Below are positions 14,757-22,148 of a stretch of DNA of 64,000 nucleotides, in pieces. A model generated the notes under the pieces. The model ran no database searches. It was given only the letters and a program-made list of their open reading frames with translations, and was not told where the DNA came from. Made by a program: the position numbers and the translations under genes. The stretch is from Bombella apis (GTDB lineage Bacteria; Pseudomonadota; Alphaproteobacteria; Acetobacterales; Acetobacteraceae). The stretch lies in contig NZ_JAGJTM010000005.1 of the NCBI RefSeq assembly GCF_018221685.1, positions 69,501-133,500 of the forward strand. The letters are read 5' to 3'. Each line of letters begins with the position of its first letter. The stretch's first letter is position 1.

Positions 14757-15695
14757 ATGACACGTTCCACCTTCACCGGCATTGCCTGCGGCGCCGCAGC
14801 AGGAGCATTGTGGGGACTGTCCCTCCTCGCTCCGGAGCTGATCGGCCCCTTCGCACCATTGCAGCTCGCGTCTGTCCGGTTCGTCACCTATGGGGTCATC
14901 GCCCTGCTGCTGCTCGCCCCGAAGCTGAAGACACTCCTTCCCCATCTGGGTGCTGCCGAATGGTGGGGCCTGCTGGGGCTCAGCCTGATGGGCAACATCA
15001 TCTATTACAGCCTGCTCAGCACGGCCGTGCAGCTCTGTGGCGTAGCCATGCCCTCGCTGATCGTCGGTTTCATCCCTGTCACGGTGACCCTCGTGGGAGC
15101 ACTGCGGCATGATTCCACCCTGCATGTCCGCCAGCTTGTCCCTTCCATGCTGCTCAGTGCAGGCGGCATTGTCTGCATCGCCTGGCAGAATTTTCACAAT
15201 GCCTCTCCCCAGCATCAGGGCGGCCTCTGGGTCCAGCTGGCCGGGCTGCTCATGGCGGCCTGTGCCCTGCTCAGCTGGACAGGCTTTGTCGTCAAGAACG
15301 CCAACTGGCTACGGCGGCTTGACCACATCACCCACAATGACTGGAACCTGCTGACAGGCCTCGTCACCGGGGCTCTCGCCCTGCTCATGCTGCCTCTGGC
15401 CTTCCTGCTGCCGCAGCATCTGCCCGCCACGGGCTGGGCGCATTTCCTCATGGTTGCCTGCGGGATGGGCCTGCTGGCCTCGGTCGTGGCCAATGCGTTC
15501 TGGAACAGCATGACACGCCTGCTGCCCCTGACGATGGTCGGGCAGATGATCCTGTTCGAGACGCTCTTCTCCCTGTTCTACGGCTTCCTCTGGGAGCAGC
15601 GTTTTCCCCGGCCTCTGGAGGCCTGCGCCATCGTTCTGGCCATCAGTGGGGTCATCTCCTGCGTCCGTGCCCATGGTCCGGCGAAGCACGACTGA
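14757..15695 (+). CDS. EamA-family (DMT) transporter, copy 1
   Basis: A 312-residue integral membrane protein with about ten hydrophobic helices arranged as two similar halves, the drug/metabolite transporter (EamA) pattern. The protein starts immediately with a helix containing GAAAGALWGLSLLAPEL. Short conserved blocks include AMPSLIVGFIPVTVTL in the first half and LLPLTMVGQMILFETLFSL in the second. The substrate cannot be told from sequence; members export amino acids, sugars or nucleobase-related compounds. It is clearly paralogous to the next gene (same length, most positions alike). It is divergent from dnaG, which lies on the other strand 127 bp away. Confidence 0.85.
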   Translation: MTRSTFTGIACGAAAGALWGLSLLAPELIGPFAPLQLASVRFVTYGVIALLLLAPKLKTLLPHLGAAEWWGLLGLSLMGNIIYYSLLSTAVQLCGVAMPSLIVGFIPVTVTLVGALRHDSTLHVRQLVPSMLLSAGGIVCIAWQNFHNASPQHQGGLWVQLAGLLMAACALLSWTGFVVKNANWLRRLDHITHNDWNLLTGLVTGALALLMLPLAFLLPQHLPATGWAHFLMVACGMGLLASVVANAFWNSMTRLLPLTMVGQMILFETLFSLFYGFLWEQRFPRPLEACAIVLAISGVISCVRAHGPAKHD

Positions 15696-15777: not shown

Positions 15778-16731
15778 ATGACACGTTCCATCCTCATGGG
15801 CACCGCTTATGGTGCCATGGCGGGAGCATTCTGGGGGATAACATTTCTCGCCCCGGAGCTTGTCGCCCCGTTCACGCCTTTTCAGCTGGCAACGCTGCGC
15901 TATCTGACCTTCGGGATCGTCTCCCTTCTCATCCTTCTCCCACGCCTGAAAACGCTGCTGCCACACCTTACCTTCAAGGCATTCCGGGCGCTCGTACTTC
16001 TCGCCATACTGGGCAGCGTGGGCTATTATAGCATGATGGGCGTGGCCATCCAGCTGAGCGGCGTAGCCATGCCATCCCTCATCATCGGCTTCATCCCCGT
16101 CACGGTGACACTGGCTGGCATCTGTCGCCATAATGCCGTTGTCACATTCCGCCAGCTCATCCCGTCCATCCTGCTCAGCACGGCGGGCATCCTCTGCATC
16201 TCCTGGCAGAATTTCTTTGTCGGCTCCGCCCTGCATCATACCGGCCCGCTGTTACAGGCCGTCGGCCTGCTGATGGCCATCGGGTCCCTGCTGGGCTGGA
16301 CACTGTTCAATGTCATCAACTCTGACTGGCTGAAAAAGCTGGATCACATCACGAGCGATGAATGGAACCTGCTGACGGGCGTCATGGCCGGTATCCTGTC
16401 GCTGGTCATTCTCCTGCCAGCCGCCTTCTTCTGGCCGGCGCACCTGCCCACGACCGGCTGGACACGCTTCATCCTCATTTCCTGCGGTGTGGGGCTGTTC
16501 TCCTCCACCATCGCCAATGCGTTCTGGAACCGCATGACCCATCTTCTGCCCCTGACGATGGTCGGGCAGATGATCCTGTTCGAAACGCTCTTCTCGCTGA
16601 TCTACGGCTTCCTCTGGGAGCAGCGCCTGCCCACCATATGGGAAGCTGCTGCCTTCCTGCTCTCCGTCAGCGGCGTTCTGGCCTGTGTCCGGGCCCACAA
16701 GAACAACGAAGCCTCCCACTCCTACCACTGA
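15778..16731 (+). CDS. EamA-family (DMT) transporter, copy 2
   Basis: A 317-residue paralogue of the preceding gene, with the same ten-helix plan and near-identical blocks (AMPSLIIGFIPVTVTLAG, LLPLTMVGQMILFETLFSL, YGFLWEQRLP). The N-terminus MTRSILMGTAYGAMAGAFWG aligns with MTRSTFTGIACGAAAGALWG of copy 1. The two are 82 bp apart and in the same direction, so they look like a local duplication that has diverged mainly in the central loop and last helix. A terminator follows 3 bp after the stop. EamA proteins can act alone or as dimers; a paired function is possible but not shown. Confidence 0.85.
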   Translation: MTRSILMGTAYGAMAGAFWGITFLAPELVAPFTPFQLATLRYLTFGIVSLLILLPRLKTLLPHLTFKAFRALVLLAILGSVGYYSMMGVAIQLSGVAMPSLIIGFIPVTVTLAGICRHNAVVTFRQLIPSILLSTAGILCISWQNFFVGSALHHTGPLLQAVGLLMAIGSLLGWTLFNVINSDWLKKLDHITSDEWNLLTGVMAGILSLVILLPAAFFWPAHLPTTGWTRFILISCGVGLFSSTIANAFWNRMTHLLPLTMVGQMILFETLFSLIYGFLWEQRLPTIWEAAAFLLSVSGVLACVRAHKNNEASHSYH

Positions 16732-16797: not shown

Positions 16798-17250
16798 TCA
16801 GCCAAGATGGGCCTTGACGAGACCGCTGGCCCGTCCGGCATCCAGTGCCGCACCGAAGCGACCTTTCAGCACACCCATCACCTTGCCCATGTCCTTCATG
16901 CCCTCGGCACCTGTTTCCTTCACGGCCTCGGCAATGGCTTCTTTCAGGGCATCTTCGGACAGTTCCGCCGGGAGATAGTTGCGGATGGTCTCGATTTCCG
17001 CCTCTTCCTTAGCGGCCAGTTCGGGCCGGTTGCCCTGATGGTACATGGCCGCAGACTCCGTGCGTGTCTTGATCATGGAACGCAGGGCCAAAAGGATATC
17101 ATCCTCACTCACCTCCCCACTCTTGGCCCGGGCAGCGACATCAAGGTCCTTGATCTTTGCGGAAATGGCACGGATCTGCGCCACACGGTCAGACTGACCG
17201 GCCTTCATGGCTGCCTTGAGATCATCCATGATACGGGTACGGAGTGACAT
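16798..17250 (-). CDS. yqeY: GatB/YqeY domain protein
   Basis: A 150-residue stand-alone GatB/YqeY-type protein, related to the tRNA-binding tail of the GatB subunit of amidotransferase. It begins MSLRTRIMDDLKAAMKAGQSDRV, the family start, and ends with MGKVMGVLKGRFGAALDAGRAS, matching the conserved C-terminal helix. The whole molecule is helical with many Lys, Glu and Ala residues. The ATG at 17250 is preferred to upstream in-frame codons because AAGAGAGAG precedes it. Its exact biochemical role is not known; in alphaproteobacteria it typically lies between carA and dnaG, as here apart from the EamA insertion. Confidence 0.9.
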   Translation of the reverse strand: MSLRTRIMDDLKAAMKAGQSDRVAQIRAISAKIKDLDVAARAKSGEVSEDDILLALRSMIKTRTESAAMYHQGNRPELAAKEEAEIETIRNYLPAELSEDALKEAIAEAVKETGAEGMKDMGKVMGVLKGRFGAALDAGRASGLVKAHLG

Positions 17251-17365
17251 GATGGTTCTCTCTCTTAATGATGAGTTTATAAGTTCCATAAAGGAGCGTA
17301 AGAGGTACCAGCCCTGCACTATCCTGTCGATATTGCAGGAGTCCACAGGGAGCAGTCACAGATGC

Positions 17366-17380
17366 GGGAAAAAACTTCCC
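17366..17380. promoter_or_regulatory. Inverted repeat, copy A, upstream of carA
   Basis: GGGAAAAAACTTCCC, a 5-bp inverted repeat around a 5-nt centre, in the yqeY/carA divergent region. An identical 15-bp copy lies exactly 50 bp downstream (17416-17430). Such identical spaced palindromes usually mark operators. No regulator is known for this sequence to me. Confidence 0.55.
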
Positions 17381-17413
17381 ACCATTGCTTGTATTCCGGC
17401 ACCCTCCCTCCAT

Positions 17414-17432
17414 ATGGGAAAAAACTTCCCAT
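17414..17432. promoter_or_regulatory. Inverted repeat, copy B, upstream of carA
   Basis: Same 15-bp core as copy A, but here the palindrome extends to 7-bp arms (ATGGGAA...TTCCCAT). It ends 78 bp before the long carA start codon and 270 bp before the short one. Confidence 0.55.
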
Positions 17433-17510
17433 CACGCTCTGGCTGCCCTATGAAGGGACAGGCCCATCCGGGTTCAGAACAGACAGGGCACGAGGCAGAG
17501 CAGCAGACAG

Positions 17511-18890
17511 ATGAACGTCGATTCACTCATCAAGAAAGCAGGCGGTGCGGCTGAAATCGCCCAGCTTACCGGTGTCAGCACCGAGGCCGTGCGCAAGTGG
17601 CGGCAGGCTGGTATGATACCCACAAAACACTGGCCTGCCCTGCTTCATGTGCCGGGGATCACCCTGGCCGACCTGAACGAGACGTCAGAGGAGACATCCG
17701 CCATGACCCACCCTACCGATGACATGCCCCCCAAAGGCGCAACGGCCGTCCTCGTGCTGGCGGATGGCTCCCATTTCTGGGGCCGTGGTTTCGGGGCCTT
17801 CAATGACGGTGCCGCAGGCGAGCTCTGCTTCTCCACCGGCATGACGGGCTATCAGGAAACACTGACAGACCCTTCCTTCGCCGGACAGATCATCACCTTC
17901 ACCTTCCCCCATATCGGCAATGTCGGCACCAACGGGGATGATGACGAGGCCCCCACCATGGCGGCCCTCGGCCTCGTGGTGAAAGAAGATGTCACCGCCC
18001 CGGCCAGCTGGCGGTCCATCCAGCCACTGCAGGACTGGCTGAAAGCCCACGGGCGGGCCGGCATCAGCGGTGTGGATACACGGGGCATCACCCGCCTGCT
18101 GCGGGACAAGGGGCCGCAGAACGCCCTGCTTTTCTACCCGAAAGATGGCCGCTTCGACCTCGCCGCCCTGCGCCAGAAGGCCGCAGAATGGCCCGGTCTG
18201 GAAGGGATGGACCTCGTGAAGGAGGTTGCCCAGCCCGCCCGCAGCTGGACGAAAACCACATGGCACAACACCCGCCCCGAGCGGGCCGTGAAACGCCGTG
18301 TCGTGGCTCTGGATTACGGAGCAAAAGACAACATCCTCCGCAGTCTCGTTGCCGCTGGCTGTGAGGTGCATGTCCTCCCCGGCACCGCCACGGGTGAAGA
18401 GATCCTCGCCCTGAAGCCGGAAGGCGTCTTCCTCTCCAACGGTCCGGCCGACCCCGCCGCCACGGCCGTCTATGCTGTCCCGGCCATCCAGGCCGTCATG
18501 GAGGCGGACATTCCGGTCTTCGGCATCTGCCTCGGCCACCAGCTTCTGGCCCGGGCACTGGGCGGCACAACCTACAAGCTGGACCGTGGCCACCGTGGGG
18601 CCAACCAGCCGGTGAAGGACCTCACGACGGGCCGGGTGGAAATCACCAGCCAGAATCACGGCTTCGCCGTGGATGAGAAGTCCCTGCCCGATACCGTCAG
18701 GGTGACGCATGTCAGCCTGTTTGACGGCTCGAACGAAGGACTGGCCTCCACCGTGAAGGAAGCCTTCTCCGTCCAGTACCATCCGGAAGCCAGCCCCGGC
18801 CCGACCGACAGTTTCTACCTCTTCGAGCGGTTTGTCGCCGTGATGGACCGCCGCGCCGCAGCCCGCACAACCAGCAAGGCAGGAGCCTGA
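17511..18890 (+). CDS. carA: Carbamoyl-phosphate synthase small subunit with N-terminal HTH
   Basis: From about residue 65 (ATG at 17703) this is a normal 395-residue CarA, the glutaminase subunit that feeds ammonia to CarB for carbamoyl phosphate used in pyrimidine and arginine synthesis. The class I amidotransferase part carries FGICLGHQLLARALGG (nucleophile Cys340 of the long form) and VQYHPEASPGP. The same frame opens 64 codons earlier with an ATG at 17511, and these residues are not random. AAEIAQLTGVSTEAVRKWRQ, then MIPTKHWPALL, is a Cro/YdaS-like helix-turn-helix. So either an HTH-CarA fusion of 459 residues is made, or two forms start at 17511 and 17703. The second start has the better ribosome-binding site. 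carB follows 3 bp later. Confidence 0.9.
   Translation: MNVDSLIKKAGGAAEIAQLTGVSTEAVRKWRQAGMIPTKHWPALLHVPGITLADLNETSEETSAMTHPTDDMPPKGATAVLVLADGSHFWGRGFGAFNDGAAGELCFSTGMTGYQETLTDPSFAGQIITFTFPHIGNVGTNGDDDEAPTMAALGLVVKEDVTAPASWRSIQPLQDWLKAHGRAGISGVDTRGITRLLRDKGPQNALLFYPKDGRFDLAALRQKAAEWPGLEGMDLVKEVAQPARSWTKTTWHNTRPERAVKRRVVALDYGAKDNILRSLVAAGCEVHVLPGTATGEEILALKPEGVFLSNGPADPAATAVYAVPAIQAVMEADIPVFGICLGHQLLARALGGTTYKLDRGHRGANQPVKDLTTGRVEITSQNHGFAVDEKSLPDTVRVTHVSLFDGSNEGLASTVKEAFSVQYHPEASPGPTDSFYLFERFVAVMDRRAAARTTSKAGA
17687..17705 (+). promoter_or_regulatory. Internal Shine-Dalgarno and second carA start
   Basis: AGAGGAG (17687-17693) lies 9 bases before the in-frame ATG at 17703, the conventional carA start. 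The upstream ATG at 17511 has only a weak GAGG 18 bases away. Both starts may be used, giving CarA with and without the HTH segment. Confidence 0.6.
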
Positions 18891-18893
18891 CCC

Positions 18894-22148
<3,255 letters not shown>

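Follow-up and report, generated by a model that had tools for sequence, protein, structure and literature searches.

The window analysed here, a stretch of 64,000 nucleotides of Bombella apis DNA, contains a carA gene whose product, the small subunit of carbamoyl-phosphate synthase (CPSase), starts with a helix–turn–helix (HTH) domain. In the 260 bp that separate this gene from its divergent neighbour, yqeY, lie two copies of a palindrome. The subject of this report is the relationship between the HTH-bearing CarA (HTH-CarA) and these palindromes, which we consider to be candidate operators of the carA–carB operon. The features concerned are the following.

17366–17380, no strand assigned: putative distal operator, GGGAAAAAACTTCCC, from the sequence repeat, the genome scan and the same-genus loci.
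17414–17432 (core 17416–17430), no strand assigned: putative proximal operator, ATGGGAA-AAAAC-TTCCCAT, on the same basis.
17426–17431, plus strand: putative −35-like hexamer TTCCCA, which coincides with the proximal operator's right arm, from layout B (see below).
17449–17454, plus strand: putative −10-like hexamer TATGAA, 17 bp after TTCCCA, also from layout B.
17511–17687, plus strand: Cro-like HTH (carph-isopro) domain of CarA, amino acids 1–59, from NF046037.1, Cro structures and a model.
17511–18890, plus strand: HTH-CarA, 459 amino acids, CPSase small subunit with N-terminal HTH, from Pfam CPSase_sm_chain and GATase and from TIGR01368.
18894–22148, plus strand: carB, the CPSase large subunit and next gene on the same strand, named from sequence and position without a family search.
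16798–17250, minus strand: yqeY, the divergent neighbour (Pfam PF09424, 2e-41), with its start codon, within the open reading frame (ORF), taken to be the ATG at 17250.

A preliminary description of this DNA had reported two identical copies of GGGAAAAAACTTCCC, the extension of the second to 7 bp arms and their location between yqeY and a carA that opens with an HTH. All of this holds: the copies occupy 17366–17380 and 17416–17430, the longer arms span 17414–17432, yqeY is on the minus strand and the HTH is in frame. The spacing of 50 bp, start to start, is also correct; its translation into about five helical turns is not, since 50 bp corresponds to 4.8 turns at 10.5 bp per turn. The copies begin 145 and 95 bp ahead of the carA ATG at 17511, in agreement with the position first given, and the judgement that a 15 bp identity was unlikely to arise by chance is borne out, an exact 15-mer repeat being found in none of 5000 dinucleotide shuffles of the 260 bp region.

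The motif GGGAA-N5-TTCCC occurs twice in the 2.04 Mb Bombella genome (six contigs), on both occasions ahead of carA. It is therefore not a motif that is common at random sites, which would have spoken against a regulatory role, and neither does it cluster before pyr and arg genes as had been envisaged, since the exact motif marks carA alone. A search of the same genome with TGGGAA-N5-TTCCCA, allowing two mismatches, gave 74 matches versus 52 for the control, with a single match outside carA at one mismatch, and on these figures no regulon beyond carA is claimed. The longer motif is a palindrome of 17 bp in which the centres of the GGGAA and TTCCC arms are 10 bp apart. It has the form of a λ-type Cro or repressor operator, a palindrome of about 17 bp with half-sites about one helical turn apart; the λ operators are 17 bp in length.

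Close relatives retain the repeats, the absence of which would have counted against them: all ten of the other same-genus genomes examined carry two sites with at most one mismatch. Across the 11 same-genus loci the 15 bp proximal core is identical in ten, with one mismatch in the remaining locus, the distal GGGAA-N5-TTCCC is present with no more than one mismatch in the ten loci other than our own, and both palindromes stand out amid a drifting region.

The wider family, the Acetobacteraceae, was sampled without reference to the motif. We queried 110 genomes (102 genera) with the HTH family only; 104 genomes from about 96 genera exceeded the cut-off, and for these, chosen by the HTH of CarA, 250 bp upstream were read. 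Outside this set are three genomes with no CarA match at E ≤ 1e-20 (G019, G039 and G075), one with its start at a contig edge (G026), one with a fragment (G069) and one with an HTH-less CarA (G029). At least one GGGAA-N5-TTCCC site with at most one mismatch was found in 97 of the 104 and at least two in 81, whereas reversed sequences gave 1 of 104 and shuffles 20 of 2080 with one site and 0 of 2080 with two. The seven sequences with no such site hold related forms, for example CGGAA..TTCCG, CGGAG..TTCCG and AGGAA..TTCCG.

Other samples agree in outline. Of 397 family genomes, 148 contain the exact pair, never more than one to a genome (reversed control, 0), and the 30 pair loci examined (L063–L092) all lie directly upstream of a gene for HTH-CarA. 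Among 80 named loci, out of 345 relatives, at least one site is present in 78 and at least two in 72, those with sites including Gluconobacter oxydans, Acetobacter, Komagataeibacter, Asaia and Rhodopila; no site was seen in the other two. A loose test, in which the core GGAA-N5-TTCC was sought within 260 bp with up to one mismatch and about 0.1 matches were expected per sequence, was positive in 164 of 164 genomes, a set that includes 60 extra genomes from 80 picked for having no exact pair, with genera g68 and g96 over-represented among them. As judged from these alignments the palindrome pair is a family-wide element of the Acetobacteraceae, and its conservation upstream of carA in nearly all of the sampled genera supports the original suggestion that the two copies are operators, here still putative, of one dimeric regulator.

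Genus g17 (e.g. G162, G205, G269, G332 and G361) presents a different picture of the motif, with 9–40 copies of GGGAA-N5-TTCCC in ten of the 13 members listed (control, 1–7) and the exact pair at most once per genome. A similar palindrome may be used by another repeat or regulon in this genus.

That the HTH of CarA might be the regulator had been put forward on the grounds of adjacency. The comparisons point the same way, given that sites are absent at HTH-less carA genes, that sites and HTH were apparently lost jointly on two occasions and that the two tend to covary. In a whole-protein search of 60 relatives, full-length family matches begin at residues 1–3 and those from other families at residue 54 or later, among the matches listed. 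Among the matches listed for 385 genomes of the class, which come from 296 genomes, only those of five genomes, all of them from the Acetobacteraceae, extend into the HTH portion of the profile, and the other CarA matches start at profile position 28 or beyond, most at 48–80. The exact pair occurs in two of the 385 genomes, both from the same family, and in none of the 380 from other families. No HTH was recognized by profile in the N-terminal frames of 31 CarA proteins of other families (the 26 best and five with early-starting matches), and no site, at up to one mismatch, was found in up to 350 bp upstream of the 26, for 25 of which the full stretch and for one only 12 bp were available.

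Within the family three genomes possess an HTH-less CarA, namely G029 and G116, which belong to one genus (g30), and G210. No palindrome is present upstream of carA in any of the three, the gene order yqeY–carA–carB being kept in G029 and G116; G210 has one off-pattern AGAAAGCCTCTTCCC, 266 bp upstream of the gene. A genome search of the genus of G029 returned only the two known HTH-less species. On a quick tree of 87 CarA cores, with nine of the 26 other-family proteins as outgroup, G210 is nested within a group of congeners that have the HTH (support 99), while G029 and G116 are placed beside Bombella, G070 and G101 (support 95–100). Three changes of state are implied, one for the family and two losses. 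Since these nested HTH-less genomes are also without sites, HTH and sites would appear to have been lost together twice.

Two of the loci with an HTH-less carA, L228 and L229, have in common the stretch GTAAAAGCAT ... TCTTTTACGAT just before the gene, which is perhaps a replacement control.

The HTH of CarA belongs to the curated NCBIfam domain NF046037 (carph-isopro), the cut-off of which, 38 bits, is exceeded both by the whole protein (62.8) and by the HTH when scored separately (68.9). Only one such domain is present in the Bombella genome. Our reading of the name is that it refers to carbamoyl phosphate. A profile of the HTH compared with PDB sequences identified Cro of Xfaso 1 and of N15, and more weakly that of P22; the same Cro proteins are the best Foldseek matches of the predicted HTH model, which has a mean predicted local distance difference test score (pLDDT) of 91. 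The helix formed in the model by residues 24–33 (TEAVRKWRQA) is likely to be the recognition helix. The HTH is in frame in 60 loci and, as predicted from the genes, DNA-binding domain and enzyme share one chain. The enzyme part appears intact by sequence: the CPSase_sm_chain and GATase domains are complete, and the stretches GICLGHQ and YHPE, which we take to serve the glutaminase part, are invariant in 21 sequences. Solved CarA chains of 382 amino acids align with the Bombella protein only from residue 78 on.

Judged by frame length, no second class of enzyme carrying carph-isopro was recognized among the family hits listed. Three short frames (109–125 amino acids; G377:C1:1034998-1035147, G158:C25:66495-66629 and G201:C17:27110-27244) match the domain strongly and may be related to the source from which CarA acquired it. 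A carph-isopro-like HTH also opens a frame of 364 amino acids at L195 (G038:C18:265183-265347), the remainder of which is TetR-like by eye; this second HTH hit of G038 was rejected as an HTH-CarA because it lies in a different ORF with a TetR-like look.

The residue that follows RKWR in the putative recognition helix (Gln32 here) is Gln in 135 of the 164 genomes and Ser, Thr, Ala or His in 29. A perfect GGGAA..TTCCC site is lacking in 28 of the 29 non-Gln genomes versus 19 of the 135 with Gln (uncorrected Fisher 6e-18), and a site with C..G as outer bases is present in 21 of 29 versus 8 of 135 (uncorrected Fisher 7e-14). In these alignments a change at residue 32 tends to be accompanied by one in the outer base of the operator, which we treat as supporting evidence only.

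The position of the sites relative to the promoter was considered in 99 of the 104 genomes, those with a pair by a lenient score; the strict count is 81 of 104, and at least one proximal site in the lenient set is doubtful (G056). The carA promoter was inferred from alignment logos, and a scan with the sigma-70 consensus did not find it. In layout A, adopted by 65 of the 99, the 17 bp proximal operator is itself the spacer between −35 and −10. TTG is present at −35 in 57 of the 65, and the −10 has A as its second base in 58. The −10 is 6 or 7 nucleotides from the ATG in 61, so the carA mRNA should be leaderless. An RNA-seq study of Gluconobacter oxydans gives ttGnnn and nAtnnn as the −35 and −10 elements, with which the layout A hexamers agree, and 5% of mRNAs as leaderless (PMC5756330, in excerpt). 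Layout B accounts for 27 genomes, including Bombella. Here the right arm, TTCCC(A), occupies the −35 place in 26 of 27. The TA of a −10 comes after a gap of 17 bp in 18 genomes and of 18 bp in three, other offsets from 12 to 25 giving 0–8. For Bombella, Gluconobacter and relatives this would put the proximal site over the −35. The remaining seven genomes fit neither layout.

The distal site lies upstream of the proximal by 38–40 bp in 67 of the 99, by 42–44 bp in seven and by 48–50 bp in nine, the value for Bombella being 50. Its core is conserved nearly as well as that of the proximal site, the weakest place being one A (79% versus 98%), and no conserved hexamer flanks it in the aligned genomes. 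Helical phasing of the two sites was considered and set aside: of the periods tried, 9.5–12 bp, that of 10.5 bp was not favoured over the others.

Taken together, these comparisons lead us to the view that HTH-CarA is probably a trigger enzyme, an enzyme with an additional role in gene regulation, that represses its own carA–carB operon via twin operators. The CPSase small subunit of Bombella and of most sampled Acetobacteraceae, with its N-terminal Cro-like HTH, would pair its HTHs on each of two 17 bp palindromes (consensus TGGGAA-N5-TTCCCA, core GGAA-N5-TTCC) in its own promoter, and carA–carB would be repressed once enough HTH-CarA is present. Two Cro-like HTHs would suit a 17 bp palindrome whose arms are separated by one turn. 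The proximal site would block the promoter from within the 17 bp spacer or from over the −35, and it is the position in layout A that suggests repression. The distal site would provide for cooperative binding, possibly through the CPSase oligomer. Binding, repression and the cooperation of bound pairs are inferred from sequence comparison. The simplest guess for the signal is feedback from enzyme abundance, modulated by CPSase effectors.

A more ambitious version of the proposal makes the CPSase holoenzyme both sensor and repressor. The E. coli enzyme forms (αβ)2 and (αβ)4 species under effector control (PMC6245113, in excerpt), and a holoenzyme could accordingly offer two or four HTHs. The four HTHs of (αβ)4 would match the four half-sites and bridge them in a small loop, and the operon would be tied to the allosteric state of the enzyme, set by uridine monophosphate (UMP), ornithine and inosine monophosphate (IMP), with no separate regulator. 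As this enzyme supplies both pyrimidine and arginine synthesis, expression would in that case be coupled directly to a step common to the two pathways. We hold this version to be conceivable and rather doubtful.

Several observations weigh against self-repression by HTH-CarA. The Pfam models match the HTH below their gathering cut-offs (on the HTH alone, YdaS_toxin 28.6 against 30 and P22_Cro 21.6 against 30.2; MerR also falls short), and the Foldseek E-values for the fold are at least 0.02; the domain may work like Cro, though it is not filed in YdaS_toxin or P22_Cro. The covariation of residue 32 with the operator is clumped, with about four changes on a quick tree of 69 of the 164 genomes (partly fetched as non-Gln, and without G065) and one independent pair on well supported branches, so that no significant sign test is possible. 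G065, which has Ser with a perfect site, has no full-length CarA and is outside that tree, and eight Gln genomes have a C..G site, G080 and G156 among them. The two HTH-less species of g30 are on a long branch, one having an odd composition. Pair spacing is concentrated at 38–40 bp, and with no favoured period of 10.5 bp any looping would be conjectural. The −35 overlapped in layout B (TTCCCA) is poor, which leaves room for activation. Lastly, ornithine and MgATP favour the tetramer of the E. coli enzyme and UMP favours the heterodimer (PMC6245113, in excerpt), the wrong sign for a simple pyrimidine feedback through oligomerization; for this reason we favour feedback by abundance.

The poor −35 of layout B brings us to the possibility that HTH-CarA binds the twin sites and activates, or has a dual role, activating from the distal site at low level and repressing from the proximal site at high level, as the λ repressor does at its operators. 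Were the ATG taken as +1, the distal site of layout A would be centred near −60, a usual position for an activator. The −35 that the operator overlaps in layout B, TTCCCA, is weak and lacks the G that is conserved at −35 in Gluconobacter, and MerR-type activators, to which the HTH has a weak match, bind between −35 and −10. Because of this −35 and the distal site near −60 the idea keeps some weight. Activation seems unneeded, however, in layout A, where the spacer is 17 bp and TTG is present in 57 of 65, and a protein bound there would block polymerase; a biosynthetic enzyme that activated its own gene would, in addition, tend to run away. We regard activation, alone or in a dual role, as unlikely.

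A separate dimeric regulator might instead bind the palindromes, with the HTH of CarA doing something else. The link between HTH-CarA and the DNA is a comparative one, and the regulators of carAB in E. coli are other proteins, ArgR, PurR, RutR, IHF, PepA and PyrH (PMC6245113, in excerpt). Against this, the exact pair is confined, in the class genomes sampled, to the family whose CarA, among the matches listed, has the HTH; HTH and sites were apparently lost together twice, and the sites tend to change with the recognition helix. A separate regulator would also often mark its own gene, and no other gene is marked in the Bombella genome. The chances of such a regulator are, in our estimation, slight. 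A last idea, in which the palindromes form hairpins in RNA, serve as an attenuator or represent a small mobile repeat, draws on their being intergenic inverted repeats that can be written as stems of 5–7 bp. It is scarcely credible, since the layout A sites are upstream of the predicted transcription start and would be missing from the carA mRNA, no Rfam family exceeds its gathering score in the window and the Bombella genome holds no exact copies elsewhere.

The surroundings of the sites merit brief description. In two genomes, G002 (L060) and G094 (L193), the neighbour of carA is by eye of the GFA type and not yqeY; the retention of the sites there suggests that they go with carA and not with yqeY. 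In the Bombella intergenic region TCCTGTCGATA, at 17322–17332, is invariant across the 11 same-genus loci. The minus strand at this point reads TCGACA-N17-TACCTC, which may be the promoter of yqeY and is separated from the distal operator by about 34 bp. An additional inverted repeat, CCTGCACTATC / GATATTGCAGG, spans 17313–17339, and its arms as a whole are not conserved in the same-genus alignment. Beyond yqeY, 14757–15695 and 15778–16731 are adjoining similar ORFs, by eye paralogous permeases of the EamA type.

CPSase is a textbook enzyme, and in E. coli a whole series of other proteins governs its expression. If self-repression by HTH-CarA is correct, then a whole bacterial family has fused a phage-type repressor domain to an enzyme and has matching sites in the promoter. 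Nature would here plainly have united an enzyme with a transcription factor in a single polypeptide, complete with natural losses and specificity variants, and the system would offer a feedback part of one gene and one promoter from industrial hosts (Gluconobacter, Komagataeibacter and Acetobacter). The finding also argues that the HTH belongs within the true CarA start in Acetobacteraceae genomes. The open-licence literature, to which our search was directed and which leaves subscription papers aside, yielded no description of HTH-CarA or its sites, and the term carph-isopro was not found in it. Trigger enzymes are already known and the domain is catalogued by NCBI as carph-isopro; what seems to be new is that CPSase is the carrier, that it has a twin operator and that the arrangement extends across the family.

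The E. coli trigger enzymes include BirA, NadR, PepA, PutA and PyrH (PMC8249747, in excerpt). PutA, a proline dehydrogenase and repressor, likewise represses its own gene at adjacent intergenic operators and is a single-target trigger enzyme, as proposed for HTH-CarA (PMC8249747, in excerpt). It differs in being another enzyme, of a catabolic pathway, and in that putP is also under its control. The DNA-binding domain of PutA is a ribbon–helix–helix, unlike the Cro-like HTH of CarA. BirA, a biotin ligase with an N-terminal DNA-binding domain, resembles the HTH-less CarA proteins in that its regulon seems to be absent where the domain is lost (PMC5343134, in excerpt). The targets of BirA are the genes of biotin synthesis, whereas the only target seen for HTH-CarA is its own operon. 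NadR is, similarly, an enzyme and repressor of its own pathway (PMC8249747, in excerpt), but has several target genes and among the Proteobacteria is restricted to Enterobacteriales (PMC5343134, in excerpt).

With respect to the DNA-binding domain, the best matches in sequence and fold are the Cro proteins of phages N15 and P22 and of prophage Xfaso 1, of which N15 Cro has been solved on its operator (6on0). The phage proteins stand alone, whereas the HTH of CarA is fused to a metabolic enzyme; it is a member of NF046037, itself a curated domain model. The same operon in E. coli, carAB, is subject to elaborate promoter control in which the trigger enzymes PepA and PyrH take part (PMC6245113, in excerpt). 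Those regulators are other proteins, in contrast to the self-control proposed here for HTH-CarA.
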